Shown one piece after another: positions 3,429 through 62,125 of a DNA stretch of 64,000 nt. Position numbers and translations under genes: made by a program. The notes beneath the pieces are model-generated. The model was not told where the DNA came from and did no database searches. It saw nothing but the letters and a program-made list of their open reading frames with translations. This DNA is from Mycolicibacterium mengxianglii (GTDB taxonomy: Bacteria; Actinomycetota; Actinomycetes; Mycobacteriales; Mycobacteriaceae). Numbering within the stretch: the stretch's first letter is position 1; the number at the start of each line of letters is the position of its first letter. The DNA is taken from the NCBI RefSeq assembly GCF_015710575.1, contig NZ_CP065373.1, forward strand, positions 1,364,001 to 1,428,000, given 5' to 3'.

Positions 3429-3566
3429 ACCCACCTCATGCCTGCAGGCTACCCGCGGCTGCACCTATCCCGGACAACACGGTCGGCTCCTTACCGATAC
3501 GGTGTCGGCGGGCGACCTGAATGTGTCGTCGACCGCTGCCGAGAACAAAGGATGTGGAGGGCGCTG

Positions 3567-5438: not shown

Positions 5439-5478
5439 TTGTGCACACAGCTTCTCCAAACCGCCACCAAATCGTCAT

Positions 5479-5502
5479 GTTTGGGGATTTTTCGTCCGGG
5501 TA
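5479..5502 (+). promoter_or_regulatory. SigF-type promoter (GTTT-N15-GGGTA)
   Basis: GTTT at 5479-5482 and GGGTA at 5498-5502 are separated by 15 bases. This fits the mycobacterial SigF consensus of GTTT and GGGTA boxes with a spacer of about 15-17. It lies 44 bases upstream of the start of the first small membrane protein and reads in the same direction. The match is by eye only. Short membrane proteins are common members of the SigF regulon in M. smegmatis, which supports the call. Confidence 0.55.
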
Positions 5503-5545
5503 AACCTCTCCTCGCCAGGTAGTACAAAGTCGAACGGAGGCACAC

Positions 5546-5755
5546 ATGCGAGGCGGCGGTCTACTCGGCGTCATTGTCCTGGTCTGGCTGTTGATCGGAG
5601 TATTCGCCGCGTTCCAGCGGGGGTATTTCGAGAACACTGAAACCAACTGTGCGACAGCGGGTTCCATAGCACTAACTGTAGTGGTGGGACCGTTGAATTA
5701 CGCGGGTGTCAACCCAACTGTGGCGAACTGCAATCTGCCGCAGCCCAGCGCGTAG
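5546..5755 (+). CDS. Small membrane protein, 69 aa
   Basis: One N-terminal hydrophobic helix (residues 5-24, GLLGVIVLVWLLIGV region) is followed by an exported or lumenal tail with two cysteines that could pair. AACGGAGG lies just upstream of the ATG, so translation is well supported. Homologous small proteins of this form are widespread in mycobacteria as hypotheticals, and I recognise no named family. It is followed 42 bases later by a second tiny membrane protein. Both lie behind a SigF-like promoter, suggesting a stress or stationary-phase role. The function is unknown. Confidence 0.7.
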   Translation: MRGGGLLGVIVLVWLLIGVFAAFQRGYFENTETNCATAGSIALTVVVGPLNYAGVNPTVANCNLPQPSA

Positions 5756-5797
5756 CTGACTCCGTAGCAAGTACTAGCTCTACTGAAAGGTTCTAAC

Positions 5798-5953
5798 ATG
5801 ATTGTCCTTGGAGCGATTCTGCTGATTCTGGGCTTTGTGCTCAAGATCAGTATCCTGTGGACCATTGGCATCATCCTGCTGGTGATCGGCGCCATCTTCT
5901 GGATCCTGGGTGCCGTCGGACGTCCCGTCGGCGGGCGAAAAGTCTGGTTTTAA
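5798..5953 (+). CDS. DUF6131-type small membrane protein, 51 aa
   Basis: A 51-residue protein made almost entirely of two hydrophobic helices (residues 2-19 and 22-40) with a short basic tail GRPVGGRKVWF. GAAAGG lies 7 bases upstream of the ATG at 5798 and the stop is TAA at 5951-5953. Short double-helix proteins of this kind with the pattern MIVLGAILLILG belong to the DUF6131 group of actinobacteria. It is probably cotranscribed with the preceding small membrane protein. The role is unknown. Similar genes are often induced by osmotic or envelope stress, but that is inference here. Confidence 0.75.
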   Translation: MIVLGAILLILGFVLKISILWTIGIILLVIGAIFWILGAVGRPVGGRKVWF

Positions 5954-46234: not shown

Positions 46235-49200
46235 ATGACGGTGAACCCGGGTGCCACCGGTTTCGACAATCCGGTGGAGTGGGCGAAGCTCCCGTCGGAC
46301 CGGATCGAGGCCCTCAGACGGGCGTATCTGGTGACCTATCGCGGGCCACACGGAGACGCACCGGACGTCGGCGCCCAAACTGCCGAGACCGGCTCGTTCA
46401 CCCGGCCCGCCTCGGCGAACTCGGTTCCCACCGAGTTGCTGGCCGCGCACTTCGCACTCGGACGCCGACGCGCCCCCGGCGAAGTGCGTGTCGCCGTCTC
46501 CGACAGCACTGAAGGATTCGGCCCGGCGCTGCAGGTCATCACCGACTCCGACGGTATGCAGATGGATTCGGCGACGGTCTTGTTGCACCGACTCGGGGTG
46601 GCCTACCTCGCGGTCATGAGCCCGGTGCTGCAGGTGCAGCGCAACGACTCGGGTGAGATCGTCGCCATCAACCCCGCAGTCGGCGATCACGACGACGACA
46701 GCGCGCCCACCGAAACCTGGATTCACATCCAGCTCGCCTCCTCGGCCAACCGAGCCGCCGTCGAGGAGGCGGCGCGATCCCTGCCCAGGGTGCTCGCCGA
46801 CGCCCGGCAGGTCGCCCTGGACGACATGCCCATGGGGTCGGCGCTGCTGACTCTGGCCACGCTGGTAGATGCCGACGAGCAGAACCGATTCCCCGGGCCC
46901 GACCGCCACGATGTCGCCGCTCTGTTGCGCTGGCTCGCCGACGGGAACTTCGTGCTGCTGGGTTATCAGCGTTGCCCGGTACGGGATGGGCAGGCCACGG
47001 TTGACGCCGCGAGCCGCCTCGGGGTACTACGACTTCGCGAGGATGTGCTGCCGCAGCTCACCCAGACCGATGACCTGCTGGTGCTCGCCCAGGCGACCAT
47101 GCCGAGTTACCTGCGCTACGGCGCCTACCCGTACATCGTCGTCGTCCGGGAGGGCCCCGGGGACCAAGCCGTGGAACACCGCTTCGTCGGGCTGTTCACC
47201 ATCGCCGCCATGAGCGCCAACGTGCTGGACATCCCGTTGATCGCCAAGCGGGTACATGCCGCGCTGGCACTGGCCGAAGATGACCCGGGCCATCCCGGAC
47301 AGCTGCTGCTCGACGTCATCCAAACCGTGCCCCGCTCCGAGCTGTTCGCGTTGTCGGCCGAAGAACTGCGTGACATGGCGATGGCGGTCATCGACCTCGG
47401 CTCGCGGCGGCGCACCCTGCTTTTCGTCCGCGGCGACCAGCTCGGCCACTTCGTGTCCTGCCTGGTCTACCTGCCCCGCGATCGCTACACCACTGCGGTG
47501 CGCTTGGAGATGCAGGACATCCTGGTCCGTGAGTTCGGCGGAACCAGCATCGATTACGCCGCTCGTGTCAGCGAATCACCCTGGGCCCTCGTTCATTTCA
47601 CCGTCAAGATGGCGGCCGACACCGACCCGCAGACCATCGATGTCTCGGAGTCCAACGAGACCCGCATCCAGGACCTGCTGACCGAGGCGGCCCGCACGTG
47701 GGGTGATCGACTGCAGGGCGCAGTGGCTGTCGGCTCCATCGACCAGACGCGCGCCGACTACTACTCCGCCGCGTTCCCCGAGGTGTACAAACAGGCGGTC
47801 ACCCCGCTGGAAGCGATCGACGATATCGCCATCATCGAAGCGCTGCAGAACAATTCGGTCAAGCTGGTGTTCGAGGACGCCAACGACCGGGGCAATGCGC
47901 GGCTGAAGTGGTATCTCGGCGGCCGCTCGGCGTCGTTGAGCGAACTTTTGCCGATGCTGCAGAGCATGGGTGTGATCGTGCTCGACGAGCGCCCGTTCAC
48001 CGTCACCCGGCCCGACGGGTTATCGGTGTGGCTGTACCACTTCCGGATCTCGCCGCATCCCACCATCGCCCCGGCAGCCCCGGAGGACATCGACGATGTG
48101 GCAAGGCGATTCGCCGATGCGGTCACCGCGATCTGGCAGGGTCGCGTCGAGATCGACCGCTTCAACGAACTGGTGTTGCGGGCCGGACTGACCTGGCAGC
48201 AGGTCGCGATCGTGCGGGCATACGCGAAATACCTGCGCCAGGCCGGCTTTCCGTATAGCCAGTCGCACATCGAGACGGTGGTCAACCGCAACGCCCACAC
48301 CGCGCGTGCCATGGTGGAGTTGTTCGAGGCGGTCTTCGATCCTGACCTTCCAGAAGCCGACCGGTCGCAGCGGGCGCAGATCGCCGCGGCCGCCGTCGCG
48401 GCCGACATCGACGCTCTGGTCAGTCTCGACACCGACCGGGTGCTGCGGGCCTTCGCTTCGATGATCCAGGCCACGCTGCGCACCAATTACTTCGTCACCC
48501 GCGAGGGTTCGGCCAGAAGCAACGGCGTGCTGGCGCTCAAACTCAACCCCGGCCTGATCGACGAGCTACCCTTGCCGCGGCCGAAGTTCGAGATCTTCGT
48601 CTACTCGCCGCGGGTAGAGGGTGTGCATCTGCGGTTCGGTTCGGTGGCCCGCGGCGGGTTGCGCTGGTCAGACCGCCGTGAGGACTTCCGCACCGAGGTG
48701 CTGGGCCTGGTCAAAGCCCAGGCGGTCAAGAACGCCGTCATCGTGCCCGTGGGCGCCAAAGGTGGCTTCGTGGTGAAGAACCCGCCGATGTCGACCGGAG
48801 ACCCCGGTGTCGATCGCGAAGCGACCCGCACCGAAGGTGTGGCGTGCTACCGCCTTTTCATCTCGGGCCTGCTCGATGTCACCGACAACGTCGAGCGGAC
48901 CACCGGCGAGGTCACCGCCCCAGCGCGGGTGGTGCGCCGCGACGGCGACGACGCCTACCTGGTGGTCGCCGCCGACAAGGGCACCGCCACGTTCTCCGAC
49001 ATCGCCAACGACGTCGCGAAGTCCTACGGGTTCTGGCTCGGTGACGCGTTCGCCTCCGGCGGCTCGGTCGGCTACGACCACAAGGCCATGGGCATCACCG
49101 CCAAGGGCGCCTGGGAAAGCGTCAAACGGCACTTCCGGGAGATGGGCGTCGACACCCAGACCGAGGACTTCACCGTCGTCGGAATCGGCGACATGAGCGG

Positions 49201-51097
49201 TGACGTGTTCGGCAACGGGATGTTGCTGTCCGAGCACATCCGATTGGTGGCCGCTTTCAACCACATGCACATCTTCCTCGACCCTGACCCCGACGCTGCG
49301 AGCAGTTTCGCCGAACGGCGTCGGCTGTTCGAGCTGCCCCGGTCTACCTGGGACGACTACGACAAGTCGCTGATCTCGCGCGGAGGCGGCGTCTACAGCC
49401 GGGAACAGAAGTCGATTCCCATCAGCCCCGAGGTCCGGTCGGCGCTGGGTCTGGGCGAGGTCACCGAATTGACGCCGCCTGCACTGGTCAGGGCGATTCT
49501 GCAGGCGCCGGTAGACCTGCTGTGGAACGGCGGGATCGGCACGTACATCAAGGCGGAGGTCCAGTCCGATGCCGATGTGGGTGACCGCGCAAACGACCCC
49601 GTGCGGGTGAACGCAAACCAGGTGCGCGCCAAGGTGATCGGTGAAGGTGGCAACCTCGGTGTCACCTCGCTGGGCCGAATCGAGTTCGACCTGATCGGTG
49701 GCCGGATCAACACCGACGCGCTGGACAACTCGGCCGGTGTCGACTGCTCGGACCACGAGGTCAACATCAAGATCTTGGTGGACTCGCTGGTGACCCTCGG
49801 CAAGCTCGAGGCCGATCAGCGCACCGCCCTGTTGGAGTCGATGACCGATGAGGTGGGCGAGCTGGTGCTGGCCGACAACGCCGAGCAGAACGACCTGCTG
49901 GGCACCAGCCGGGCCAACGCCGCCAGCATGCTCAACGTGCATGCCCGCCAGATCAAAGAGCTCGAAGAGGTGCGCGGCCTCAGCCGCGAGCTGGAAGCAT
50001 TGCCTTCCACCAAGGAGATCCGGCGGCGCACCGAGACGGGGATGGGGCTGACGTCGCCGGAGCTGGCGACCCTGATGGCGCATGTGAAGTTGGCGCTCAA
50101 GGACGAAGTGCTGGCCAGCGACCTACCCGACCAGGATGTGTTCGCTGCCCGGCTGCCCGCGTATTTCCCTGCGCCACTGCGGGAGAACTTCACCGCCGAG
50201 ATCCGCGGCCACCAGCTGCGCCGCGAGATCGTGACGACGATGCTGGTCAACGACCTCGTCGACACCGCCGGGATCAGCTTCGCCTACCGGATCACCGAGG
50301 ACGTCGGCGTCGCTCCGGTGGATGCGGTACGCACCTACATCGCCGCCGACGGGATCTTCGGCGTCGGCGAGGTATGGCGCCGGATCCGCGCCGCCAGTGT
50401 GGAAAACGATGTGCCGGTGCATGTCTCGGACCGGATGACGCTGGACCTGCGTCGACTCATCGACCGCGCCGGCCGCTGGTTGCTCAACAACCGGCCGCAA
50501 CCGCTGGCGGTCGGCGCCGAGATGAACCGGTTCGCCAACAAAGTCGCCGCGCTGACCCCTCGGATGCCGGAGTGGCTGCGCGGTGACGACAGGGGCATCG
50601 TCACCAAGGAGGCCGCCGAATTCGCTTCCCATGGTGTGCCAGAAGACCTGGCGTACATGGTCTCCAGCGGGCTCTACCAGTACAGCCTGCTCGACATCAT
50701 CGACGTCGCCGACATCGTCGACCGTGACGAGGTGGAAGTGGCCGACACCTATTTCGCGCTGATGGACCACCTCGGCACCGACGGCCTGCTCACCGCCGTC
50801 TCCGGTCTGCCCCGTGATGACCGGTGGCATTCATTGGCACGCTTGGCAATTCGTGACGATATCTACAGTTCTATTCGGACACTGACCTTCGATGTGCTGG
50901 CCGTCGGTGAACCCGAGGAAAGCGGTGAAGAGAAAATCGACGAGTGGCAACACACCAACGGGTCCCGACTGGAACGCGCGCGCCGCACGCTCACCGAGAT
51001 CTATGCCGACGGCGAGCGCGACCTGGCCACCCTGTCGGTGGCCGCACGCCAGATCCGCAACATGACCCGGTCGCAGAGAGCGGGGTCCCACGGGTGA
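46235..51097 (+). CDS. gdh: NAD-specific glutamate dehydrogenase, large (about 180-kDa class)
   Basis: 1620 residues, the usual length of the L-180 class. The N-terminal half holds ACT-like regulatory domains. The catalytic region near residues 800-1000 includes the conserved [13 protein letters not shown] and [13 protein letters not shown] (active-site lysine), followed by a nucleotide-binding domain. It converts glutamate to 2-oxoglutarate and ammonia with NAD. In mycobacteria this enzyme is regulated by GarA (Rv1827), which binds the protein when unphosphorylated. ATG 46235; the TGA overlaps the next gene's GTG by 4 bases. It matches Rv2476c. Confidence 0.94.
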
Positions 51098-51507
51098 ACA
51101 CTCCGTACGTCGCCCCGGTCACGGTGCGCTGGTCCGACATCGACATGTACCAGCACATCAACCACGCCACCATGGTGACGATTCTCGAAGAGGCCCGGGT
51201 GCCGTTCCTGTCGGAGGCATTCGGCCCCACCATCACCACCACCGGACTGTTGATTGCCGAGGTGAAGGTGTCCTACAAGGGCCAGCTGCGGCTGATCGAC
51301 TCGCCGCTACAGGTCAGCATCTGGGTGAATCGTTTGCGCGCAGTCGATTTCACCCTCGGCTACGAAGTTCGCTCGGTCAACGCAGCGCCCGACTCCAAGC
51401 CCGCGGTGATCGCTGAGACGCAACTGGCGGCCTTCGACATCGACGAGCAGCGGCTGGTCAGGTTGTCCCCGGTGCACCGGGAGTACCTCCAGCGGTGGTT
51501 GCGCTGA
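51094..51507 (+). CDS. Acyl-CoA thioesterase, 4HBT hot-dog fold (Rv2475c orthologue)
   Basis: A 137-residue single hot-dog protein. The 4HBT active-site sequence is [24 protein letters not shown] (residues 10-33), where the aspartate and the helix are catalytic. Its GTG start shares the GTGA of the gdh stop, so translation is coupled. The last 13 bases overlap the next gene. The substrate is an unknown acyl-CoA. The conserved placement after gdh suggests a housekeeping link to acyl-CoA clean-up. Confidence 0.88.
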
Positions 51508-52184
51508 CCGCGGACAGGGGGCTCTGGCTCGAGGATCCGGCGCACCGCGCGGATCTGGCCATGTTCACCGAACGGGCGCAGCGCCTCGACGATGCCGCGG
51601 TGGTCCGGGTACGGGTGCGCTCCGACGGGCAGCTCAGCGCCTGGGTGGCGACGAACTTCGATGTGCTGGCCACCCGGGTGGTGCAGGGCACGGTGCGGCC
51701 CGACGATCTGTCCGCCGGTGCCGATGCGTTGTTGCGCGGTCTGCGAGCGGCCGATCGATCCGGGTTCGTCGACCCGGGCTACGCCATGGACTCCGCCTGG
51801 CGGGGCGTGCTGCCACCTGAGTCAGGCTTCGCCCATCTCGACGACGTGCCGGCCCGGGTGATGCTGGATCTGGCGCAACGGGGTGTGGCGCTGGCCCGCG
51901 AGCACGGCAGCGGACAGGGACCGCCGGTGTCGCTGCTGGATCAGGAAGTCATCAGCGTCACCGCCGACGACGTGACCGTCGGGATCCCGATGCGTTGCGT
52001 GTTCGCGTTGACCGCGATGCGGTTCCTGCCGCAGTCCGGCAACGGCGACAACGAGTTGGCACCGGAATCGGTGACCGCCGACGAGATCGTGCGGGTTCGG
52101 GTGCTGCCCGCATGGTTACGGATCGACGCCCGGTTCGGGTCGGTGTACCGCCGACGTGGCGACCCCGCGCTCGTACTGCGCTAG
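51495..52184 (+). CDS. Conserved hypothetical protein (Rv2474c orthologue)
   Basis: 229 residues, acidic and soluble, with no signal peptide or membrane segment. I recognise no domain. Conserved-looking parts are DPAHRADLAMFTERA, LRAADRSGFVDPGYAMDSAWRG and FGSVYRRRGDPALVL at the end. It starts at GTG 51495, inside the thioesterase gene, and its stop lies in a 13-bp-stem hairpin. It is always third after gdh and the thioesterase in mycobacteria from memory, suggesting a linked but unknown task. Confidence 0.75.
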   Translation: MVALTADRGLWLEDPAHRADLAMFTERAQRLDDAAVVRVRVRSDGQLSAWVATNFDVLATRVVQGTVRPDDLSAGADALLRGLRAADRSGFVDPGYAMDSAWRGVLPPESGFAHLDDVPARVMLDLAQRGVALAREHGSGQGPPVSLLDQEVISVTADDVTVGIPMRCVFALTAMRFLPQSGNGDNELAPESVTADEIVRVRVLPAWLRIDARFGSVYRRRGDPALVLR

Positions 52185-52202: not shown

Positions 52203-52925
52203 CTAGTCGCGCCCGCGCCGGAGGGAACCGAGCACGAGTCGCGTGCGGGCGAGTTCGGTCGCATTGACCTCTGTTGCTTGGTCTGCGATGCGCAGAAACT
52301 CTCGGATCTCTGCGTGCACGCGGGGACTGCGCCGCCGTAGGTCAGCCACCAACGACGTCACCTGGGAGTCGAGTTGGTCGTCGGGCACGGCTTCGGTGAG
52401 CAGTCCCAGCTCCACGGCCCGAGATGCCGAGATTGTGGCACCGGTAGCGGTCAACCGCATGGCTTCACGGCGACCGACGACCTGGGGCAGCCACGCCAGA
52501 ACCAGTACCGGGGCCAGACCGATCTCAACCTCCGGGAAGGAGAACTTCGCCGACGACGTGGCAATGGCGAAGTCGCTGAGCGCCGCAAGTCCGACGCCGA
52601 ATCCGGCTGCGCCTCCGTGGACTTTGGCGACAGACACCAGCCGGGTGTTCCGCAGCGCATGGTTGACCGCGACCAGTCTGTCGACTTCGCCTGGCAGTTC
52701 GTCGACACTGGCCGCTGTCCGTTCCCGTCCCAGGCAGAAGGCGTCACCGTCTGATTCCAGGATCAGCACATGCGCTGAGGCGGGAGGGGACTGCAGCAAC
52801 ATGCAGAGTTCGTCGCACGTCGCCAACGAGAGCAGCCCGTCTACCGAAACCGGCAGCTTTACCGTGAGAACCCCATCGCTTATTTCCGACGAAATCCGGC
52901 CGTCATGTGAAATTGCTGTTGTCAT
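52203..52925 (-). CDS. Enoyl-CoA hydratase/isomerase-family protein
   Basis: About 240 residues with a crotonase fold. The place of the first hydratase glutamate reads GFGVGLAALSD and lacks it. The second is kept in FSFPEVEIGLAP. It may therefore be an isomerase or a lyase rather than a hydratase. It is the last gene of the operon that begins with the GntR gene at 61211. Its ATG at 52925 is only 5 bases after the aldehyde dehydrogenase stop, so translation is coupled. Within that pathway it could open or rearrange a CoA-linked intermediate. Confidence 0.8.
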   Translation of the reverse strand: MTTAISHDGRISSEISDGVLTVKLPVSVDGLLSLATCDELCMLLQSPPASAHVLILESDGDAFCLGRERTAASVDELPGEVDRLVAVNHALRNTRLVSVAKVHGGAAGFGVGLAALSDFAIATSSAKFSFPEVEIGLAPVLVLAWLPQVVGRREAMRLTATGATISASRAVELGLLTEAVPDDQLDSQVTSLVADLRRRSPRVHAEIREFLRIADQATEVNATELARTRLVLGSLRRGRD

Positions 52926-52930
52926 GGTGA

Positions 52931-54433
52931 TCAGTTCAACCTTTCCTGGCCGACGCCGGCGTACCAGTCGACATCGTTGGGGCTCGTCCTGATGGTCACG
53001 CTGCGTACCTGGGTGAAGTCGTGGAAGGACTCCCAACCGCCTTCGCGTCCCTGACCGCTCTCACGAACACCGCCCCAGGGTGAGCACGGATCCAGCCGGT
53101 GGTGATCATTGACCCAGACGATGCCTTGCTCGAAGCGCGAGGCGACGCGATGAGCGCGTGCTACGTCGCGGGTCCAGATCGAGGAACCCAGGCCGAAGTC
53201 AGAGTCGTTGGCGATCTGCACCGCTTCGTCCTCATCGGTGAACGGAATCACGACAAGGACCGGACCGAAGATTTCCTCGCGGGCCACTCGCATCTGGTTG
53301 TTGACCTGGCTGAGGACCGTTGGTTTCACGAAGAAACCGTTCAGGCCGGCCACTTGGGCCGCTTCGCCTCCTGTCGCGACGGTGGCCCCCTCCTGGACTC
53401 CGAGTGCCACGTAATCGAGGATCCGCCGTCGGGCGCGCTCTGAGATCACCGGTCCGAGTTGGGTTTCGGCACGGGCGGGGTCGCCGATCTGGATGGCTTC
53501 GGCTTGTGCCGCCAACTGGGCCACGAATTCGTCGTAGATGGTGGACTGAACGATCAACCGGGTCCCGGCAATACACGTCTGGCCCGCGCCGATGAATCCA
53601 CCGAAAGCGGCTCCGCGGGCGGAGACATCGACAGGTACGTCGTCGAAGATGACCACTGGCGACTTGCCGCCGAGTTCGAGGGTGGCTTTGGCGAATCTGC
53701 GGGCGGTGGCGACGGCGATAGACCGGCCAGGCTCGGTACCGCCGGTGAACACCGCCTTCTTGACCAGTGGATGCTCGACCAACCTGGCACCGGCATCCGG
53801 CCCGAGTCCGGGCACCACGTTGAGCACTCCCGGCGGAATACCGGCCTCCAGGGCCAGCTTTCCGATTACCAGCGCCGTGAGCGGAGTTTGTTCGGACGGC
53901 TTGAGGACAACGCTGTTACCTGTCGCCAAGGCCGGAGCCAGGCTCTTCGACGCGATCATCAGCGGGTGGTTGAAGGACGACAGAATTCCGACCACACCGA
54001 GCGGCATTCTCGTCGTGTACGAGTGGTACGGACCGGACATCGGCACCACTGAGGTCCGGTCCGCCAGCAGCAGCGCCGCGTTGTACCGGTACCACTCCGG
54101 GAGTCGCGTGATCTGCGCCTTGGTCTCGGTGATCGGGCGGCCGTTGTTCAGCGTCTCGAGCCGGTAGAGCTCCTCCATGTTCGCCTCGAGAAGGTCGGCG
54201 AACCGGTTCAACGTCTTGGCGCGCTCGTGAATCGGCGCGTCGCGCCATACCCCCGACTCGAACGCCGCGTGTGCACCCTCGACGGCTGCGTCGATGTCGG
54301 CGGCGTCGCCACAATGACAGCGGGCGAAAGATTCACCCGTGGCCGGATTGATGACATCGAGGATCTCGCCATGTCCTTCGACACCCTGGCCGTTGATGAT
54401 GAGCTTTTCGACGGTGGTCTGGTCGGTGGTCAT
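52931..54433 (-). CDS. Aldehyde dehydrogenase
   Basis: 500 residues, the standard ALDH length. Asn155 (FNHP), Glu253 (LELGGKSP) and catalytic Cys287 (GQTCIAG) are all present, and the NAD-binding region is TGGTEPGRSIA. It is closest in style to amine- or aminoaldehyde-oxidising NAD-linked ALDHs (gabD/betaine aldehyde type). It lies between the RidA-repeat gene and the crotonase gene in the GntR-controlled operon and would oxidise an aldehyde formed in the pathway. AAAGGAGAG precedes ATG 54433 by 5 bases. Confidence 0.9.
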   Translation of the reverse strand: MTTDQTTVEKLIINGQGVEGHGEILDVINPATGESFARCHCGDAADIDAAVEGAHAAFESGVWRDAPIHERAKTLNRFADLLEANMEELYRLETLNNGRPITETKAQITRLPEWYRYNAALLLADRTSVVPMSGPYHSYTTRMPLGVVGILSSFNHPLMIASKSLAPALATGNSVVLKPSEQTPLTALVIGKLALEAGIPPGVLNVVPGLGPDAGARLVEHPLVKKAVFTGGTEPGRSIAVATARRFAKATLELGGKSPVVIFDDVPVDVSARGAAFGGFIGAGQTCIAGTRLIVQSTIYDEFVAQLAAQAEAIQIGDPARAETQLGPVISERARRRILDYVALGVQEGATVATGGEAAQVAGLNGFFVKPTVLSQVNNQMRVAREEIFGPVLVVIPFTDEDEAVQIANDSDFGLGSSIWTRDVARAHRVASRFEQGIVWVNDHHRLDPCSPWGGVRESGQGREGGWESFHDFTQVRSVTIRTSPNDVDWYAGVGQERLN

Positions 54434-54480
54434 CGTTTCTCTCCTTTGCTGCATGTTTTTCAGTTCGGATGCGGCGAGCT

Positions 54481-55677
54481 TCAGACGCCGGTGCGATAGA
54501 CGACTTCGAGGCTGATGCTCGACGCATCCACCGACGGCGAGGTGCTGATCGCGGCGGTTTCGGCGACTCCCTCGGGCAGCGCGCGGCCCAATCCGAAGAC
54601 GTCTGCGGGGCGTGGCAGGAAGGCATGCACTTTCACTGGCCGTGCATTTGCACCCACCTGGGCACCGGCGCTGTCGAACGCGGCACGGAGGGCCCGTTCG
54701 ACAGCGAACGGCCGATATCCGGCGTCGTCGACGTCGACCCGGGCCACCGCGAAGGTGGTCGCGGCCAATCCCGCCGTGGAGATCCCGACTTGGTCCGGGC
54801 TCCGGTCCGCGGTTGTGGCTGCATGCTTGGGTACGCCTGCACGTACCGCGATGACGTCGATCTCGATCTCGGCTCCACCGGTGAGCAATTCGTCTACTCC
54901 GATGATCAGGTAGGGCGGGGGATTGCCGTCGAACTTGTCGTTCCACAGGGCCTCGAACAACGGTGCCTCGCTCATGTTCTTGAGGAAGACATGAACGCGA
55001 ACGGTGTGGTCCCAATCGCTGCCGGCGTCCTCGAGAAGGATTTGACAGACACCGATGGTAAATCTCGCCTGCGCAATCAGTGACGAAACATGATGGGGGA
55101 AACGAGGATTCACAGCCGCGCCGGGGGACAGCCCGGTATCGCCGAATTCCGTCGGTAGCTGACCTGCGAGGAAAAGCCAGTCGCCGGCCGCAACGCACGG
55201 TGTGTAATTGGCGAGCGGCTTCGGTATCCGGGGGCTGTCGATCTGGCGGATCCCGACCACATCCGGCAGTGCCGCGATGGCGTCCACCGCCACCAACGTG
55301 CCCGGCACCGCCATGGCACCGCTTCCGACGCCGACGGTGGTCCGCGGCGGCGGGACAGGGAAGAACTTCTTCCAGATCTGGTCGAATGCGTCGAACAGTC
55401 GGCAGTCAGTCAGGAACACCTGGGTCTTGACGACATCTTCGAGTCGGCAGCCGCGAGTGCTCAGTACGCGGCTGAGCTTCTCCAGAACATAGGTGGTCTG
55501 CTTCTGGATATCGGCTCCGTAGTAGGGGAATTCGCCCGACACCGCCGCCTGCGGCGGGATGCCCGACTCCGCGTCGGCGGCAGTCAACCCTGACACGAAA
55601 ACGAGTCCGTCGCTGACAAGACCGCGTTCATCAAGGATCGCTTCGACAGAGTGAGAACTGCTACTGCGGTAAGACAT
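54481..55677 (-). CDS. Three-module RidA-family protein (tandem YjgF/YER057c/UK114)
   Basis: 398 residues holding two clear RidA modules (about 15-138 and 160-280) and a third, more diverged one (about 295-398). Ordinary RidA proteins are 130 residues and act as trimers that hydrolyse reactive enamines or imines to ketones and ammonia. The arginine in the active site is kept in module 1 (PPRTTVGVG, Arg112). In module 2 it is tyrosine (PPPYLIIGV, Tyr256), and module 3 has no clear match. The fusion may replace the trimer within one chain. ATG 55677 with GGGAGGTAG upstream. It sits downstream of a liv-type transporter. Confidence 0.82.
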   Translation of the reverse strand: MSYRSSSSHSVEAILDERGLVSDGLVFVSGLTAADAESGIPPQAAVSGEFPYYGADIQKQTTYVLEKLSRVLSTRGCRLEDVVKTQVFLTDCRLFDAFDQIWKKFFPVPPPRTTVGVGSGAMAVPGTLVAVDAIAALPDVVGIRQIDSPRIPKPLANYTPCVAAGDWLFLAGQLPTEFGDTGLSPGAAVNPRFPHHVSSLIAQARFTIGVCQILLEDAGSDWDHTVRVHVFLKNMSEAPLFEALWNDKFDGNPPPYLIIGVDELLTGGAEIEIDVIAVRAGVPKHAATTADRSPDQVGISTAGLAATTFAVARVDVDDAGYRPFAVERALRAAFDSAGAQVGANARPVKVHAFLPRPADVFGLGRALPEGVAETAAISTSPSVDASSISLEVVYRTGV

Positions 55678-55775
55678 GCTCAACTACCTCCCGACGGGGT
55701 CACCCCGCCTTGTTCCAATGATTTTGGTGCACACATATCCCGACGCAGCCGGCCGGGTACGGGCGCGGATACGGT

Positions 55776-56498
55776 TTAGCGGACTTCGTCGATGCCGAAG
55801 AACAGCTTTCGCAGGCCTTCGTCTTCCAGGACGGATGCGACGTCCTGTTCAGGGCTGATCCGGCCGGCTTGCATGATGTGGACCCGGTCGCAGTGGGGCA
55901 GAATCACGGCGGGGTTTTCCTCGACGACCCACAGTACCCCGACTCCGTCCTTGGCTGTTTCAGCCAGGCGGGCGATCAGTTCTTGAACGATCGTGGGCGC
56001 CAGGCCGGTGGTCGGTTCGTCGAGCGCCAGGAGTTTCGGTTCTGCCGCCAATGCTCCTGCTACAGCCAGCATCTGGCGTTCGCCACCGGATAGTGTCGAA
56101 GCACTGCTGCCACGTCGCTTGCGCAGCGAGGGGAAGCGGTCGAACGCCGTGTCGATGCCGGTGCTGAGCTTGGATCGGCCCATCGGCATGAGCGCGACCC
56201 TGAGGTTCTCCTCGACTGTCAGGCTGGGAAAGGTGTTGCCCCCCTGCGGTACATAGGCCATACCGCGTCGCACCAACTGTGCGGTGGGGATTGTGGCCAG
56301 ATCTGTGCCCATGAACTCGATTCGACCCGACATCGGTTCGACGAGTCCGAAAACCGACTTGAGCAGGGTGGATTTGCCGGCCCCGTTGGGTCCGACCAAC
56401 GCGACGGTCTCATTTGACCGGACGTCCAGTGACACTTCGTGGATCACGGGCAGCTTGCCGTATCCGGCCGTGAGATCGCGGACTGTCAGCAGCGTCAT
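55776..56498 (-). CDS. livF: Branched-chain-amino-acid-type ABC transporter, ATPase LivF
   Basis: 240 residues, a compact ATPase with Walker A GPNGAGKST (about 35-43), signature LSGGERQ and Walker B LLALDEP. Length and the PTTGLAPTIVQEL segment fit LivF. It overlaps livG by 4 bases. LivF and LivG form the two nucleotide-binding subunits driving the LivH-LivM channel on the inner face of the membrane. Confidence 0.92.
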   Translation of the reverse strand: MTLLTVRDLTAGYGKLPVIHEVSLDVRSNETVALVGPNGAGKSTLLKSVFGLVEPMSGRIEFMGTDLATIPTAQLVRRGMAYVPQGGNTFPSLTVEENLRVALMPMGRSKLSTGIDTAFDRFPSLRKRRGSSASTLSGGERQMLAVAGALAAEPKLLALDEPTTGLAPTIVQELIARLAETAKDGVGVLWVVEENPAVILPHCDRVHIMQAGRISPEQDVASVLEDEGLRKLFFGIDEVR

Positions 56499-57274
56499 TT
56501 GCTACTCCCGAGGTAGATTTCGGCCACCATCGGGTGCACCGCGATTTCGTCAGGCGTGCCGGAGACAACGACGCGTCCTTCGGCCATCACGTAGACATAG
56601 TCCGAGACTGCAAAAACGAACTGGATGTTGTGGTCGATGATGAGCAGGGTGATCCCTCGGGCCCGCAGATCGGTGACCTGGTCGGCGAGGCGCCCGATAC
56701 CGTTTGGGGCGACCCCCGCGGCGGGCTCGTCGAGTAGCACCATGCGGGGCTGCACCATCAGCAGCCGGGCGAAGTCCACGAGCTTGGTCTGACCGGCGGT
56801 CAGATCCTCCAGCCGCTGGTCCTTCACCGATTTGAGACCGAGTTCGTCGATCAAAGTGTCTGCGCGTAAGGCGGTTTCACGTTCGAGTTTCAGCCATCGG
56901 CTGCGCTGAAACAGGCCGCGAAACAACGATTCGGACTCTTTGGCTCCGGCGGCCATGAGGTTCTCCCACACCGAGAGCAGTGGGAACCCCACCGGTGTTT
57001 GGAACGACCGCACCATCCCCTTGCGCGCGATTTTCCACGCCGGCTCGCGTTCTATCCGGTCGCCGAAGAGCGACACCTCGCCGGTGTCGGTCTGGTCGAA
57101 GCCGGTGAGGACGTTGAACAGACTGGTCTTTCCCGCCCCGTTCGGACCGATGACAGCCGTGATGGTGCCCTTGGCGGCCTGCAGAGACACACTGTCGACG
57201 GCTTGGACACCGCCGAAAGACTTGCTGACATTGTGGGCGCTGAAGGCCAATTCGGTTGTGCTGCTTGTGCTCAT
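56495..57274 (-). CDS. livG: Branched-chain-amino-acid-type ABC transporter, ATPase LivG
   Basis: 259 residues with Walker A GPNGAGKTS near residue 44, a LivG-type long insert (RSFQTPVGFPLLSVWENLM), a degenerate signature DLTAGQTKLVDFARL and Walker B MVLLDEPAAGVAP. ATG 57274 is inside a longer open frame; upstream codons have no support and would overlap livM. It overlaps livM and livF by 4 bases each, as expected of a coupled transporter operon. Confidence 0.9.
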   Translation of the reverse strand: MSTSSTTELAFSAHNVSKSFGGVQAVDSVSLQAAKGTITAVIGPNGAGKTSLFNVLTGFDQTDTGEVSLFGDRIEREPAWKIARKGMVRSFQTPVGFPLLSVWENLMAAGAKESESLFRGLFQRSRWLKLERETALRADTLIDELGLKSVKDQRLEDLTAGQTKLVDFARLLMVQPRMVLLDEPAAGVAPNGIGRLADQVTDLRARGITLLIIDHNIQFVFAVSDYVYVMAEGRVVVSGTPDEIAVHPMVAEIYLGSSK

Positions 57275-58251
57275 TTCACAGACACCGCTTTCTTGTGCTG
57301 ACCTGTGGGGTTCAGATCCCGTTCGCTGAGCCGGAACGCCGACCGCTCGCTCATCAGCCCTTCTGGGCGGAACCTCAGGACCACGATGAGCAGGATTCCC
57401 AAAATGACCGGGCGCGTCGCTGCCAGCAGTTGCGCGTACTCCGCGGAGCCCTGGAGGAATGTAAGTAGCTCCGTGCATACGATGAGCAGCGTCGCGCCGA
57501 TCAACGGCCCCTTGCGGCTGGCGATGCCGCCGATGACCAGTGCCGTCCACACCACGAACGTCAGCTCCGACACGAACAGCGACGGCACCACACTGCGGAC
57601 ATGCCACAGGTACAGCGGGGTGATGACACCGATCAGCGCACCCGCGAAAACGTAGGTGACGATGCGGTAGCGCACCACGTTCTTGCCGAGCGATCGAGCC
57701 ACGGCCTCGTTGTCGCGGCTGGCTCGAAGCACCCGGACATAGGGAGTTTTGGCCAGGCGGTTCATCAACAGGTAGATCGCGAGTGCGACCGCGATGGCCA
57801 TCCCGAGAAGTACCCAGCGGTAGTGCGCGGCCGGAACGAGGTCCCGGAACGGGCGGTCGATCGAGGAGAAGCCGGTAGTACCCCGGGTGAGCCAGCTCTC
57901 GCTGATAGCGAGCTGGTGGATCACTTCGGCGAAGGCCAGTGTGGTGATGAGGAAGTATTCGCCACGCAGCCGGATCGACGGGAGTGCGATGACCAGAGCT
58001 GCCAGGGCGGTCACCACGGCGGATCCGATGATCCCGGCCGCAATCGGCCACCCAGGTGTCAACCACAGACCGGTGTCGACGCGAGTCTGGGTGAGAATGA
58101 TGTAGGTGTATGCGGCGACGCCCACCAGGCCGGCGACGCCAAGATCCCACATCCCGGCCCAGCCGGCAACGAGATTGAGCACCTGAGCCAGCGCGGCGTA
58201 GATGGCCGCGAGAGTGAGCACTCCGACAAGGAAGATCAATAACGATTGCAC
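57271..58251 (-). CDS. livM: Branched-chain-amino-acid-type ABC permease LivM
   Basis: 326 residues with about nine membrane helices and the conserved permease segment IRLRGEYFLITTLAFAEV (about 95-112) that marks LivM, along with YVRVLRASRDNEAVARSLGKNV, the coupling loop for the ATPases. Start GTG 58251 is assigned because it overlaps the livH stop (TAGTG); a longer open frame to 58476 is inside livH. It forms the channel with LivH. Confidence 0.9.
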   Translation of the reverse strand: MQSLLIFLVGVLTLAAIYAALAQVLNLVAGWAGMWDLGVAGLVGVAAYTYIILTQTRVDTGLWLTPGWPIAAGIIGSAVVTALAALVIALPSIRLRGEYFLITTLAFAEVIHQLAISESWLTRGTTGFSSIDRPFRDLVPAAHYRWVLLGMAIAVALAIYLLMNRLAKTPYVRVLRASRDNEAVARSLGKNVVRYRIVTYVFAGALIGVITPLYLWHVRSVVPSLFVSELTFVVWTALVIGGIASRKGPLIGATLLIVCTELLTFLQGSAEYAQLLAATRPVILGILLIVVLRFRPEGLMSERSAFRLSERDLNPTGQHKKAVSVK

Positions 58252-59114
58252 TACGCAGCCTGCTTTCTCTGCCGGACGCTGAAGAGTCCGCTCGGCCTGA
58301 CGAGCAGGACGATGATGAGCGCGGCGAAAGCCACGACGGTGCGGTACGACGTGGGGATCAGCAGAGCACTGAGATCCATCGCCAAGCCCAGGATGAGGCT
58401 GGCGAAGATCACGCCGTACGTGCTGCCCAGCCCGCCGAGCACCGCTGCGGCGAGGATCAGAATGATGTTTTGCCAACCGAGTTCAGGTCCGACTGACCCG
58501 ATGATCCCGATCATCACGCCGGCCAACCCGGCCAGGAAGCCGGAAATGAACCACACCTGGTAGGAGACGAACTGCGTTGATATGCCTCGAACTCGTGCCA
58601 GGTCAGGATTGCTGGCCACAGCGCGGATGGAGATGCCTGCCGGTGTCCTGGTCAAAAACAGATGGAGTGCGAGAATTGACACCGCGGACGTCAGGATGAT
58701 GGCGAGCTCTCCGAAGGAGATCTGCACTCCCAGTAACGAATACGAGGATCCGAAAGACACGTCGTAGTGCTGCAGGTTGGCCCCGAAGATCATGACGAGC
58801 ATGCCGTAGATGACATAGGCGACACCCACAGAGGAGAACAGCTGGACCAGGGCGCCCTTTTTTCGAATGGGCTCGAAGATCACCACCGAGAGAATGACGG
58901 CAGCGAGTCCCGTTGCGATCGCGGCAAAAAGGGCCGCGGCCCAAGTGGGCACACCCCAGTCCCTGGAGGCCAGCAGGCCCAGAAAGGCGGCCAGGGCCAG
59001 GAACTGGCCGTGTGCGATGTTGAGGAAGCCTTCGGTCTGGCGCACCATCGAGAAGCCGACGGTGGCCATCGCGAGAATACTCCCGGTGACCAGGCCGAAA
59101 ATCACATACTGCAC
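58251..59114 (-). CDS. livH: Branched-chain-amino-acid-type ABC permease LivH
   Basis: 287 residues with about eight membrane helices. The N-terminal QYVIFGLVTGSILAMATVGFSMV and the loop ISIRAVASNPDLARVRGI (near 177-194, the ATPase coupling helix) are typical of LivH. Start GTG 59114 is backed by AAGGCGG. It is the first permease gene downstream of the substrate-binding protein, 93 bases away. Confidence 0.9.
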   Translation of the reverse strand: MQYVIFGLVTGSILAMATVGFSMVRQTEGFLNIAHGQFLALAAFLGLLASRDWGVPTWAAALFAAIATGLAAVILSVVIFEPIRKKGALVQLFSSVGVAYVIYGMLVMIFGANLQHYDVSFGSSYSLLGVQISFGELAIILTSAVSILALHLFLTRTPAGISIRAVASNPDLARVRGISTQFVSYQVWFISGFLAGLAGVMIGIIGSVGPELGWQNIILILAAAVLGGLGSTYGVIFASLILGLAMDLSALLIPTSYRTVVAFAALIIVLLVRPSGLFSVRQRKQAA

Positions 59115-59207
59115 TGCACACCGCCTTTCAGGGGGCTGCGAAAAGGAAGTTCGGACGGGACTGCTGCTGACGGCCAGCGGTTCGCCGGATGGCCGTCAGC
59201 AACAGCA

Positions 59208-60461
59208 CTAGCGATCCAGGATTTCGCGGAGCTTGGGATCGAGCTCCAGAACGGCCACCTGACTCCACGCGCCGTCCACGATGAACTGCTCACCGAACAG
59301 CGGAGCGGAAAGATTGTTGTGCTCGTTGAGGTCCAGCGAACCTGAGGCGCCCTCGTAGTTGATCTCGTTGCCAGCCTCGAGTTCTTTGACCCCGTCGGCG
59401 TACGAATAAACCACGACGCCTTCTGGGTTCAGCACCTCGGGAATCGCTTCGGCAATCGCTGGGCCCTCGGTGCTCTGCGCTTTCGTGATCGCCAGAGCGA
59501 GTGCGATGTACTGGTCGTACTGGTTCGCGTCGTAGACACCTGCGGCGGGCTCCTGGCCGGTTTTGGCTTTGAAGCGCTCGGCGAAGCTCTTGTAGGCGGG
59601 GGAGTCCGTGTCGTAAGCGGCGATTGCGCCGATGGCGACGCCGTCTTCCAGCTCGGGCATCAACGACCCGATCGGCGGGGTAACCAAATCCGGTGATACG
59701 AAGAACTTTCCGCCGTAGCCGCGACGCTGCCACTCGCGGAAGATGACCGAGGCGGCTTCGTGGCCGGCGGCAAGATAGACGGCATCGGGCTTGGCGTCGA
59801 ATGCCTGGGCCAGCTCCGCCTGGTAAGAGGAACGGCCGGGATTGAATCGGACGTCGGCTACGACCTCGCCGCCGGCACCTTCTTGGAAGACCTTTTTGAA
59901 GATGTCGGCTGGTTCGGACATGCCCTCGGTGTTCTGGGCCATGATAGCTACCCGTTTGACGCCTTCGTCCCGGGCGAACTGTGCGGCAATGGTTCCACCG
60001 TCAGAGTCGGAACCTGTTATCCGCCAGATGTATTCGCCACCCTCGGTGTCGAGTTCCGGTGTTCCGCACCCCGGACAGAAGACGGGAATCTCGAGTTCGT
60101 TGGCGCTGTCGAGGATCGCGAGGCCGCCGGTCGACTCTACGCCGCCGACCGCCACGACGTTTTCGACATCAACGAGACGAGAGAACCCTTGTACGGCGCC
60201 TTCCACGGTCGACAGATTGTCGGCTGTCACCAGCTCAACCTGCTTGCCGAGGACGCCGCCGTTTTCGTTGATCTCGTCGATCGCTATGGTGACCGCTGCT
60301 TGCGAAGGCTCGTAGTAGGACGAGTAGTCGCCGGTGATGCCGTTCAGCCATCCGAACTTGATGGCGTCACTGTCTGCGCCGCCGCCGCCTCCTCCGCTAC
60401 ATGCGGTCAAAGCCATTGCGGCACAGGCGATAACGCCGAGCGCCTGTTTGTTCTTGATCAT
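59208..60461 (-). CDS. ABC transporter substrate-binding lipoprotein, LivK/urea type
   Basis: 417 residues. A lipoprotein signal peptide ends at lipobox LTACSGG (Cys21) followed by an unusual run of six glycines. The mature protein is a type I periplasmic-binding fold with KFGWLNGITGDYSSYY at its start. It resembles binding proteins of the Leu/Ile/Val or amide/urea group, but ligand residues cannot be read by eye. GAAAGGAAGC precedes ATG 60461. It is the first transport gene of the operon and would define the substrate. Confidence 0.88.
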   Translation of the reverse strand: MIKNKQALGVIACAAMALTACSGGGGGGADSDAIKFGWLNGITGDYSSYYEPSQAAVTIAIDEINENGGVLGKQVELVTADNLSTVEGAVQGFSRLVDVENVVAVGGVESTGGLAILDSANELEIPVFCPGCGTPELDTEGGEYIWRITGSDSDGGTIAAQFARDEGVKRVAIMAQNTEGMSEPADIFKKVFQEGAGGEVVADVRFNPGRSSYQAELAQAFDAKPDAVYLAAGHEAASVIFREWQRRGYGGKFFVSPDLVTPPIGSLMPELEDGVAIGAIAAYDTDSPAYKSFAERFKAKTGQEPAAGVYDANQYDQYIALALAITKAQSTEGPAIAEAIPEVLNPEGVVVYSYADGVKELEAGNEINYEGASGSLDLNEHNNLSAPLFGEQFIVDGAWSQVAVLELDPKLREILDR

Positions 60462-60563
60462 CGGTGCTTCCTTTCATTTGGGTACGCGTCTCTGCACCGA
60501 CGACTTCAGTGGCGGTGTGCAGGCAGCCGGGTGTTCGAGCCGATCCGCTGAGGAACGGTGTTT

Positions 60564-61211
60564 TTAGACGGTGTCCTCGTCATTGGCGAGGAGATACCGG
60601 ATGATGAATTCGTGCGACGTCTCCAGATGGGTGCGCGTGAGTTCGTTCAACCGCTGCCCATCGTTGGCCTTGGTGGCTTCGAGGATCGCGGCGTGTTCGA
60701 CCTGTAGGTGCTCGACGTTGCCGATGACTGCCAGGTGCAGGTAGAGGTAGCGGTCGGTGAGCTTGCGAAGCTGATCGACGTGCGCGATCGTCATCGGCCG
60801 GTTGGCGCGCCGGTAGATGGTTGCGTGAAAGTTCCCGTTCGCTTCGAGCCATTCGACGACATCCGTCGTCTCGGACATCGCCTCGTAGTAACCGGTCATC
60901 TGGATGATTTCGGCTCTGCCGATATCTGCCAGCGCGACTTGGGTGAGGTTGGGCTCGACTGCCATCCGCATCTCGTAGAGCTCCTGCAACTCCAGGATGG
61001 AGAGTCTGCGCGAGTACGGCGCTCCATCGATCATCTCGACGAGGCCTTCCGCAACGAGTGTCTGCACAGCGTCGCGCACGGGAATCCGGCTGACGTTGAA
61101 CTGCTCGGCGAGCTTGGACTGCGACAGTTTGACGCCCGCGCCGATTGTCCCCGTCAGGAGGGCATGCCGGAGACCCGTCAAGACTGTGCCGCCGACCGTA
61201 GATGTCGCCAT
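60564..61211 (-). CDS. GntR-family regulator, FCD (FadR/VanR) type
   Basis: 215 residues. The winged helix is at about residues 8-75 (LSQSKLAEQFNVSRIPVRDAVQTLVAEGLVE) and the FCD ligand domain follows, with histidine residues in NFHATIYRRAN and the later HLAVIGN/EHAAIL segment that bind metal and a small acid. It is the first gene of a nine-gene run on the minus strand and probably controls it. Two palindromes lie upstream. ATG 61211. Confidence 0.88.
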   Translation of the reverse strand: MATSTVGGTVLTGLRHALLTGTIGAGVKLSQSKLAEQFNVSRIPVRDAVQTLVAEGLVEMIDGAPYSRRLSILELQELYEMRMAVEPNLTQVALADIGRAEIIQMTGYYEAMSETTDVVEWLEANGNFHATIYRRANRPMTIAHVDQLRKLTDRYLYLHLAVIGNVEHLQVEHAAILEATKANDGQRLNELTRTHLETSHEFIIRYLLANDEDTV

Positions 61212-61566
61212 ATTCCCGCTTTCAGATGCATTTCGCGTGCGCTGTATACAGAAGCTAGGAGTATGAATTCATTCTGTCAATAGATAGATAGATCGCTTGC
61301 CTATGTTTTATGACGATTTGAGTGGCATGGGGATACGGCTCCGGGGTAGCAGTCGGCAGCGCAACACGTGGCAGCCTTGGCATTTTGTGGAGGGGCGCTG
61401 TACGACCTCGGATATGGCGTAATTGACTGGGAGGCAACAGATCCGCTACCACACAGTGGCCGTGCCGAACGCGGGCACGGCAGGCTCCGCCAGGCTTCTT
61501 TGGGCGCGGGCGACAGTATGAAGAGACCCGCAGGGCTGATGCGCCGCTAGCGCGGTCGCGGGGCGG
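61212..61566. other. Intergenic region of 355 bases: GntR promoter and glbO 3' flank
   Basis: This region lies between the GntR start and the glbO stop. It includes two perfect 10-bp palindromes (CTGTATACAG at 61242-61251 and ATGAATTCAT at 61263-61272), a short (TAGA) repeat at about 61280-61293 and a hairpin with 8-bp arms (61460-61467 and 61475-61482) that could end glbO transcripts. The section near 61250-61330 is AT-rich, unlike the surrounding DNA. No gene is seen. Confidence 0.65.
61242..61272. promoter_or_regulatory. Two palindromes upstream of the GntR gene
   Basis: CTGTATACAG at 61242-61251 and ATGAATTCAT at 61263-61272 are each perfect 10-bp palindromes, with centres 21 bases apart (two helical turns). 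TGTATACA is a usual core for FCD-type GntR operators. They are 31-61 bases upstream of the GntR ATG, so autoregulation is likely. Confidence 0.68.
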
Positions 61567-61962
61567 TCAGAACGGCGAGTTCATCATCGAGTCCGCGGCC
61601 ATCTCCAGATAGTCCAGCAGTGCCTTGCGGTGGTGGTCATCGAGAGTCTGGCTGTCGATCTCGGCCACCGCGGTGTGCATGCACCGCAGCCAGGCGTCCC
61701 GCTCCAGGGGGCCGATCCGAAACGGGTGGTGGCGCATCCGTAGCCGCGGATGCCCGCGCTGCTCGGAGTAGGTGCGCGGGCCACCCCAGTACTGCTCGAG
61801 AAACATCCGTAGCCGTACTTCGGCGGCAGGCATGTCGTCGTCGGGATACAAGGGCCGCAGGATTTCGTCCTCGGCGACCTGCTCGTAGAACCGCGCGACG
61901 ATCTTGTGGAACGTGGCGGCGCCGCCTACCGCGTCGTAGAAGGTTTCAGGGTCCTCGGGCAC
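61567..61962 (-). CDS. glbO: Truncated haemoglobin GlbO
   Basis: 131 residues, nearly identical in plan to M. tuberculosis GlbO (Rv2470). The proximal histidine is in RMRHHPFRI, tyrosines of the distal pocket are in FYEQ and LYPDDD, and the tryptophan of helix G is in DAWLRCMH. The 2-on-2 globin binds oxygen tightly and is linked to respiration or nitric oxide handling. The start is GTG 61962 with GGAG upstream but close; a longer frame upstream does not fit the family length. The neighbours HNH and pepN match M. tuberculosis. Confidence 0.93.
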
Positions 61963-62125
61963 CGCTCCATTGTGTACTTGATGTCGGCCCCGGGGGTGCC
62001 CGGCCGTGGTTCTGCCGGCTGCTTTCGGACTGGTCACACTATGTTCACCGGATTGACCTGCGTACACGGCCCAAATTGTCGTGCAGGACGCAGCGATCCG
62101 TGGTGGACTGTGCGACGGAGGAGCC

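Follow-up and report, generated by a model that had tools for sequence, protein, structure and literature searches.

Complementary active-site decay in a tandem Rid protein encoded with a Liv-type importer and an exchangeable aldehyde dehydrogenase–crotonase core in Mycolicibacterium mengxianglii

What connects a Liv-type ABC importer with a tandem Rid protein, an aldehyde dehydrogenase and a crotonase in a single run of mycobacterial genes? Here we analyse nine minus-strand genes at positions 52203–61211 of a 64,000-nucleotide stretch (hereafter referred to as the window) of the Mycolicibacterium mengxianglii genome, which is a single contig of 5.96 Mb. The genes run in the order gntR to crotonase, and each scores above its Pfam cut-off. 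They encode a GntR regulator, a substrate-binding lipoprotein (SBP), two permeases, two ATPases, a tandem Rid protein (RidA3, hereafter Rid3), an aldehyde dehydrogenase (ALDH) and a crotonase-family protein. A preliminary description had read all nine as one pathway. That reading is supported in part: the operon is real, conserved and movable, but the membership of ALDH and crotonase in it varies. They form a separate core that is also found, with related GntRs, beside three other kinds of importer. New here are this core, the complementary decay of active-site residues in the 26 closest RidA3 sequences, and the word TGTATAC, which precedes gntR in each of 24 Liv- and Tau-type operons. The genes, the conservation of the block and of the operator word, the residue pattern and the co-occurrence of the components are direct observations. 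The residue decay and the exchangeable core are the parts that we consider worth following. The features are as follows.

61252–61280, minus strand: predicted core promoter, TTGACA-17-TAGCTT; the sole match to TTGAC-N18-TANNNT in the window (0.16 expected).
61243–61250, no strand assigned: predicted GntR operator, palindrome cTGTATACAg, one base past the -10; the sole TGTATACA in the window (0.08 expected).
60564–61211, minus strand: GntR regulator of the FCD (FadR) subfamily, 215 amino acids (Pfam GntR and FCD).
59208–60461, minus strand: SBP of the Peripla_BP_6/HAAT type, 417 amino acids (Pfam; lipobox read in the sequence).
58251–59114, minus strand: LivH-type permease (Pfam BPD_transp_2).
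57271–58251, minus strand: LivM-type permease (Pfam BPD_transp_2); its GTG start, read from the sequence, overlaps the livH stop.
56495–57274, minus strand: LivG-type ATPase (ABC_tran; top NCBIfam model LivG, under cut-off).
55776–56498, minus strand: LivF-type ATPase (ABC_tran; top NCBIfam model UrtE, then LivF, both under cut-off).
54481–55677, minus strand: Rid3, tandem Rid, 398 amino acids; two Ribonuc_L-PSP stretches, with R112 in module 1, Y158 and E272 in module 2, and a decayed third region.
52931–54433, minus strand: ALDH (Aldedh, 546.7 bits); start set by comparison with the relative at locus L010.
52203–52925, minus strand: crotonase-family protein, 240 amino acids (ECH_1, 91.9 bits).

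Positions, strand and order are those first described, and the Pfam family agrees for each gene. The overlaps and short gaps that had been noted also stand: with the preferred start codons, genes overlap by 1–4 bases (LivH/LivM 1, LivM/LivG 4, LivG/LivF 4) or lie 5–102 bases apart (GntR–SBP 102, SBP–LivH 93, LivF–Rid3 98, Rid3–ALDH 47, ALDH–crotonase 5).

Rid proteins are trimers whose ligands sit in clefts between subunits. The cleft of 2-aminomuconate deaminase, for example, is formed by α4, β4 and β5 of one subunit and by β2, β3, β6, α4 and the loop Lp1 of the next, according to passages of PMC6742747. Proteins named 3x-RidA in 2015 (for example, EF_0115) have tandem Rid modules and are presumed to be covalently linked trimers (passages of PMC4433059); Rid3 likewise carries tandem Rid modules in one chain. 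We aligned 120 listed sequences of 234 Rid3 homologues, dropping the fragment P0032 from the counts. The closest group comprises the 26 rows from P0001, the Rid3 of the window, to P0026, at identities of at least 60%; species names are given for five of them (P0006, P0013 and P0023–P0025), all mycobacterial. At the position of Arg105 of TdcF, all 26 have Arg in module 1 and none has it in modules 2 and 3. The Tyr17 position is deleted in module 1 and occupied by Tyr in module 2 (26/26 each), and is never Tyr in module 3. Glu at the Glu120 position is confined to module 2, again in all 26, and absent from modules 1 and 3. By contrast, the 92 more distant rows keep Arg in all three modules (92, 92 and 92), with Tyr in 84, 92 and 92 and Glu in 88, 92 and 91 of them in modules 1, 2 and 3, respectively. 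The same losses as in the closest group occur in P0063, a 49%-identical tandem Rid protein at the edge of the mycobacterial-type group.

Because module 1 alone retains Arg, module 2 alone retains Tyr and Glu, and the third region has none of the three, a single remaining composite site is predicted, in which Arg112 would face Tyr158 and Glu272. This pattern fits the survival of one inter-module cleft, the assignment of strands to residues being our own. We tentatively propose, at somewhat less than even chances, that in Rid3 a homotrimeric enzyme is on its way to becoming an asymmetric monomer: two of its three sites would have been lost by complementary decay, leaving one composite site specialised on one imine and a third part that serves as scaffold, and the Liv importer and Rid3 together would act as a movable adapter to the exchangeable ALDH–crotonase core.

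The label 'three-module RidA' in the preliminary description needs qualifying. Pfam finds two Rid stretches; the third region has no match with the limit at E 10, where HMMER filters drop most weak matches. Its similarity to intact Rid modules by profile comparison (hhalign) is weak, with probabilities of 14.5% and 13.3% against 0.7% for a reversed control, and falls to 0.2% with four single-domain Rid proteins of the same genome. The third region of P0063 matches the mycobacterial third region (88.6%) and not the intact modules (0.2%). With R112 at the Arg105 position of TdcF, Rid3 retains one copy of the catalytic Arg of RidA-type imine deaminases, which agrees with the imine step that had been suggested. 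The RutC model TIGR03610 scores 55.8 of 169.1, below its cut-off.

Rid3 is found, at E 1e-20, in 8 of 396 genomes of the genus; a full-length copy is present in 2 of 301 genomes of a family sample, and at E 1e-50 only the window's own genome is recovered from a phylum sample of 396. The three Rid3 loci with names are labelled Mycobacterium or Mycobacteriaceae. When the neighbourhood is sought in other genomes, as had been recommended, the genes for GntR, SBP, LivH, LivM, LivG, LivF and Rid3 are present in this order in all eight Rid3 genomes. The order was established by tblastn; automatic gene calling had hidden some of the block genes. SBP relatives of at least 81% identity occur in exactly these eight genomes, and matches of any kind at E 1e-40 in 21 of 329.

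The surroundings of the block are not conserved. At E 1e-10 (blastn), the 3-kb upstream flanks of the eight loci have nothing in common, and the downstream flanks share sequence in one pair only (L053/L054). Because the flanks differ among loci, the block appears to travel as a cassette. In the window, the operon lies between a 229-amino-acid open reading frame (ORF) at 51495–52184 and a truncated-globin gene at 61567–61974 (Pfam Bac_globin). Relatives of this ORF were found in 14 of 21 genomes searched, including its own. In one of the 13 others, G310 (locus L169), a globin gene directly adjoins the ORF, an arrangement that looks like an empty insertion site of the operon; in the remaining 12, no globin gene lies within 1.5 kb of the ORF. 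A search of plasmids with Rid3 gave three matches, each covering one module, and with the distant relative P0110 it gave 1019 records, the 30 listed being joined single-module places. Also near the operon is a 1620-amino-acid open frame at 46235–51097, which we take to resemble the large NAD-dependent glutamate dehydrogenases.

The constancy of this block bears on a more general role for Rid3, as a guard against toxic enamine by-products of pyridoxal phosphate or flavin enzymes encoded elsewhere, in which case ALDH and crotonase would serve an unrelated carbon source. RidA proteins are known for damage pre-emption (passages of PMC4433059), the operon includes no imine-forming enzyme, and ALDH and crotonase are sometimes missing beside Rid3. 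However, the genome has 12 Rid-domain matches, two inside the Rid3 gene and the others at ten further places, so that an extra general guard looks redundant; moreover, Rid3 is tied to the Liv importer in eight of eight genomes, all of which keep the ALDH–crotonase core. We regard a guard role as unlikely, although it retains some weight.

The core itself is more widespread than Rid3. The crotonase subfamily is found, at E 1e-40, in 28 of 396 genomes of the genus at 29 places, 28 of which we compared, omitting the additional G579 copy that lies on a short contig. The crotonase gene has an ALDH gene as its neighbour in 28 of 28. Four of these places are of the Liv–Rid3 type and 17 of a second, Tau type with a NitT/TauT-like importer (one of these, L132, is cut before its gntR). 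Five lie beside a likely major facilitator superfamily (MFS) transporter with a divergent GntR. In L129, the GntR–ALDH–crotonase core is near an aminoethylphosphonate/polyamine-like ABC importer (2961–5812, other strand) and next to a carbon–nitrogen hydrolase gene (2001–2951, other strand). The last, L148, has a GntR and no recognised importer. The four Rid3 genomes whose Rid3 operon has no crotonase have one next to an ALDH copy in a second operon elsewhere, together with a GntR 47–51% identical to that of the window and a NitT/TauT-like importer whose SsuA and phosphonate-binder matches are weak and under cut-off. All eight Rid3 genomes are among the 28 crotonase genomes, with a hypergeometric probability of 2e-10 that ignores kinship. 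The neighbours of the Tau-type operons at L097 (16118–19591) and L099 (15984–19898) include an Amidohydro_2 enzyme, and in addition a histidinol-dehydrogenase-like enzyme at L097 and, at L099, a putative cyclase together with a PucR-type regulator.

In trees, the Liv–Rid3-type GntRs group together (100/99), with a warning of long branches from the program, and so do the four Liv–Rid3-type crotonases (100/99). The ALDHs of this type do not form one group, because the ALDH of the Rid3 operon of G370 sits with the ALDH of that genome's own Tau-type operon (100/99). An ALDH of one operon type has therefore been copied into the other, so that ALDHs are exchangeable between types, and such copying suggests a like function.

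The matches of ALDH and crotonase leave two further readings to be weighed. ALDH carries LELGG and GQTC motifs, which we take to mark the hydrolytic, non-acylating type. In the alignments, the crotonase retains what we take to be the second and not the first of the usual catalytic Glu residues, and no NCBIfam model reaches its cut-off among the best 25 of 71 families matched. Crotonases can also act before aldehyde dehydrogenases, as in the pairs of feruloyl-CoA hydratase/lyase with vanillin dehydrogenase and of oxepin-CoA hydrolase with a semialdehyde dehydrogenase. By this logic, the crotonase of the window would cleave or hydrolyse a CoA ester and free an aldehyde for ALDH. The unbroken adjacency of the two genes is consistent with such an order, the two MFS partners scanned, out of five, match best the aromatic acid/H+ symport family (under cut-off), and models of oxepin-CoA hydrolase and hydroxycinnamoyl-CoA hydratase/lyase (PRK09120) are among the crotonase matches. 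The latter two remain far below their cut-offs, however, at 68.4 of 300 and 58.7 of 276, and Pfam finds no CoA ligase among the nine genes. We regard this order of events as improbable.

The second reading is a 2-aminomuconate-like route, in which ALDH would oxidise an amino semialdehyde and Rid3 deaminate a dienamine acid, as in the breakdown of aminophenol or nitrobenzene. The pairing of a Rid-family deaminase with an aldehyde dehydrogenase is indeed common to the window and to the known pairs of 2-aminomuconate deaminase and semialdehyde dehydrogenase, and Rid proteins are known in such routes (passages of PMC6449761 and PMC6742747). Module 2 of Rid3 matches 2-aminomuconate deaminase 6izh (E 5e-5), hydroxymuconic semialdehyde dehydrogenase is second among the solved relatives of ALDH, and five Tau-type operons (L097–L099, L135 and L136) have beside them an Amidohydro_2 gene or one closely related to it. 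Against this, no ring-cleavage dioxygenase or oxalocrotonate enzyme is encoded among the nine genes, the deaminase itself is a single-domain hexamer (passages of PMC6742747), and ALDH scores 402.9 of 693.25 with the hydroxymuconic semialdehyde dehydrogenase model TIGR03216, missing its cut-off, with six other ALDH models higher. Such a route is quite improbable.

The operon types are linked by a word in their control regions. Among the loci with gntR, all 8 of the Liv type and all 16 of the Tau type have TGTATAC at -35 to -44 relative to the start of this gene; the word is further up in L129 (-122) and L148 (-114), and it was not found in the 250 bases searched in the five MFS-type loci. Over all these loci, 27 of 502 gene-upstream regions contain TGTATAC, those of gntR included, and away from gntR either TGTATAC or GTATACA occurs six times in 599,286 bases, once as the L129 site just past the 160-base limit. 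The palindrome TGTATAC/TGTATACA is a likely operator of GntR. Genome counts of TGTATACA are 2 in the window's own genome, 1 in G551, 5 in G328 and 6 in G481, against 3, 6, 17 and 6 for the reversed word. At the position of the window promoter, six of eight Liv-type loci have a -35/-10 pair that matches four to six bases of TTGACA; by the same rule, L049, L050 and the 16 Tau-type loci have none. A mechanical sigma-70 scan with a stricter rule gave no promoter, a terminator scan stayed at chance level, and a scan of the region with Rfam had no matches at gathering scores.

The second TGTATACA of the window's own genome is at position 9658 of L177 (G000:C1:4906500–4926400). To the left of this site, the flank corresponds to the genes around the L096 Tau-type operon (89, 66 and 64% identical), and on its right TauB- and TauC-like genes (37–38% and 24–25%) take the place of GntR, ALDH and crotonase, together with carbon–nitrogen hydrolase-like and amidohydrolase-like genes judged from their first residues only. 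Since this site sits beside TauB/TauC-like genes at a place like that of the L096 Tau operon, a small GntR regulon is possible.

The importer is of the Liv/HAAT type, with a Peripla_BP_6 binder, two BPD_transp_2 permeases and two ABC ATPases in the five-part LivJHMGF layout. This suits the uptake of an amino-acid-like compound that had been suggested, and the nearest solved chains of SBP are branched-chain amino acid and HAAT binders. In the HMMER alignment, SBP has an acidic residue and a threonine close to what are presumably the amino-acid-holding positions of LivJ-type binders. The NCBIfam models for branched-chain amino acids nevertheless stay under cut-off throughout (binder 77.1 of 477, LivH 81.2 of 379, LivM 101.9 of 366, LivG 201.3 of 362 and LivF 170.6 of 441), as do those for urea (UrtE 197.1 of 285.8 and UrtB 121.4 of 250.3). 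Ordinary uptake of branched-chain or other standard amino acids, with Rid3, ALDH and crotonase as accidental neighbours, would account for the resemblance of SBP to LIV binders, but not for the conserved block, the common operator word, the co-occurring core or the absence of tandem Rid proteins from most genomes; we hold it to be very improbable.

A related Liv importer, its binder about 49% identical, is encoded at L101 (G349:C1:3352000–3371900) together with a single-domain RidA; this further RidA–importer cluster also encodes an FAD monooxygenase, an amidohydrolase and a Rieske oxygenase. The importer paralogue recurs in six further genomes (L102–L107), in four of which (L102, L103, L104 and L107) a protein resembling the L101 Rieske oxygenase is encoded nearby. 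We rejected such relatives, whose binders are 45–50% alike, as a source of substrate clues, the distance being too great for transfer.

The transporter half is already present in published nitrogen-response tables. In Mycobacterium smegmatis, MSMEG_6881–6876 have the order of the window genes from GntR to LivF (GntR, binder, two permeases, two ATPases), and the same species encodes a Rid3 67–70% identical to that of the window; because of this shared order and the Rid3, we treat MSMEG_6881–6876 as the putative orthologous operon. MSMEG_6881 is listed as a 209-amino-acid GntR of the FadR subfamily (passages of PMC2018728). It has a GlnR chromatin immunoprecipitation (ChIP) peak, number 53, and 5.8-fold GlnR dependence (passages of PMC3662644). 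Under nitrogen starvation, the wild type exceeds a glnR mutant by 8.9x for MSMEG_6877, 7.0x for 6878, 5.0x for 6879, 4.9x for 6880 and 11.8x for 6881 in the table of PMC4222082, which does not list MSMEG_6876 and 6875; MSMEG_6876 is 2.1-fold up under nitrogen limitation (passages of PMC4617892). This nitrogen-responsive expression, GlnR-dependent for MSMEG_6877–6881, also accords with uptake of an amino-acid-like compound. The earlier claim that the operon is undescribed therefore holds only in part. Its six-gene stretch is on record, but the available passages on MSMEG_6881–6876 name no Rid3, ALDH, crotonase or substrate there, and the main texts of two of the three nitrogen-response papers contain none of the terms L-PSP, aldehyde dehydrogenase and enoyl-CoA. 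As far as titles and passages show, the literature names neither a substrate nor a function for the operon, and no orthologous operon with an established substrate, which would have refuted the preliminary description, was found.

Together, these features lead us to propose, at about even odds of being right, a substrate-inducible, nitrogen-linked scavenging operon that adapts an amino compound to a shared ALDH–crotonase route. The Liv-type importer would take in a small amino-acid-like compound, as suggested by the importer type and the nitrogen control. GntR, bound to TGTATACA at the promoter, would be released once the imported compound or a product of it binds. Rid3 would hydrolyse an enamine or imine acid derived from the import to ammonia and a carbonyl compound, and this release of ammonia would fit nitrogen scavenging. 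ALDH would oxidise the aldehyde, and the crotonase would work on a CoA ester, formed by a ligase encoded elsewhere. Rid3 and the importer would thus be the adapter that brings an amino compound into a route fed by other importers in related operons. In this scheme we infer the ligand, the imine source, all catalytic steps and the order of ALDH and crotonase.

Several observations weigh against this proposal. Pfam finds among the nine genes no oxidase, lyase or transaminase that could make the imine. ALDH adjoins Rid3 in only six of the eight genomes and crotonase in four, leaving two Rid3 operons without ALDH and four without crotonase. The probability given for the co-occurrence of Rid3 and the core ignores kinship. 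Rid3 misses the cut-off of TIGR00004, the general Rid detoxifying hydrolase model (88.6 of 106.25 bits), its module 1 has lost the Glu, and its third module, only weakly Rid-like, is too decayed to prove. In Salmonella RidA, moreover, replacement of the Tyr and Glu had little effect (passages of PMC4433059). M. smegmatis has a GlnR ChIP peak at MSMEG_6881; upstream of the operon in the window no GlnR site is evident, with no match to the strict motif and 21 one-mismatch sites against 41 expected. MSMEG_6881 is not marked as an operon gene in the available passages of PMC3662644, and MSMEG_6875 is only a candidate for the Rid3 gene, from the matching order of the preceding genes.

If the proposal is correct, Rid3 would offer a readable case, in a small soluble protein, of a symmetric enzyme that loses its symmetry after gene fusion. 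A stretch of the mycobacterial nitrogen response would gain an operator, a relative in a model organism and an enzyme as its likely partner, and an ALDH–crotonase module would be described that is joined to importers of several kinds in mycobacteria.

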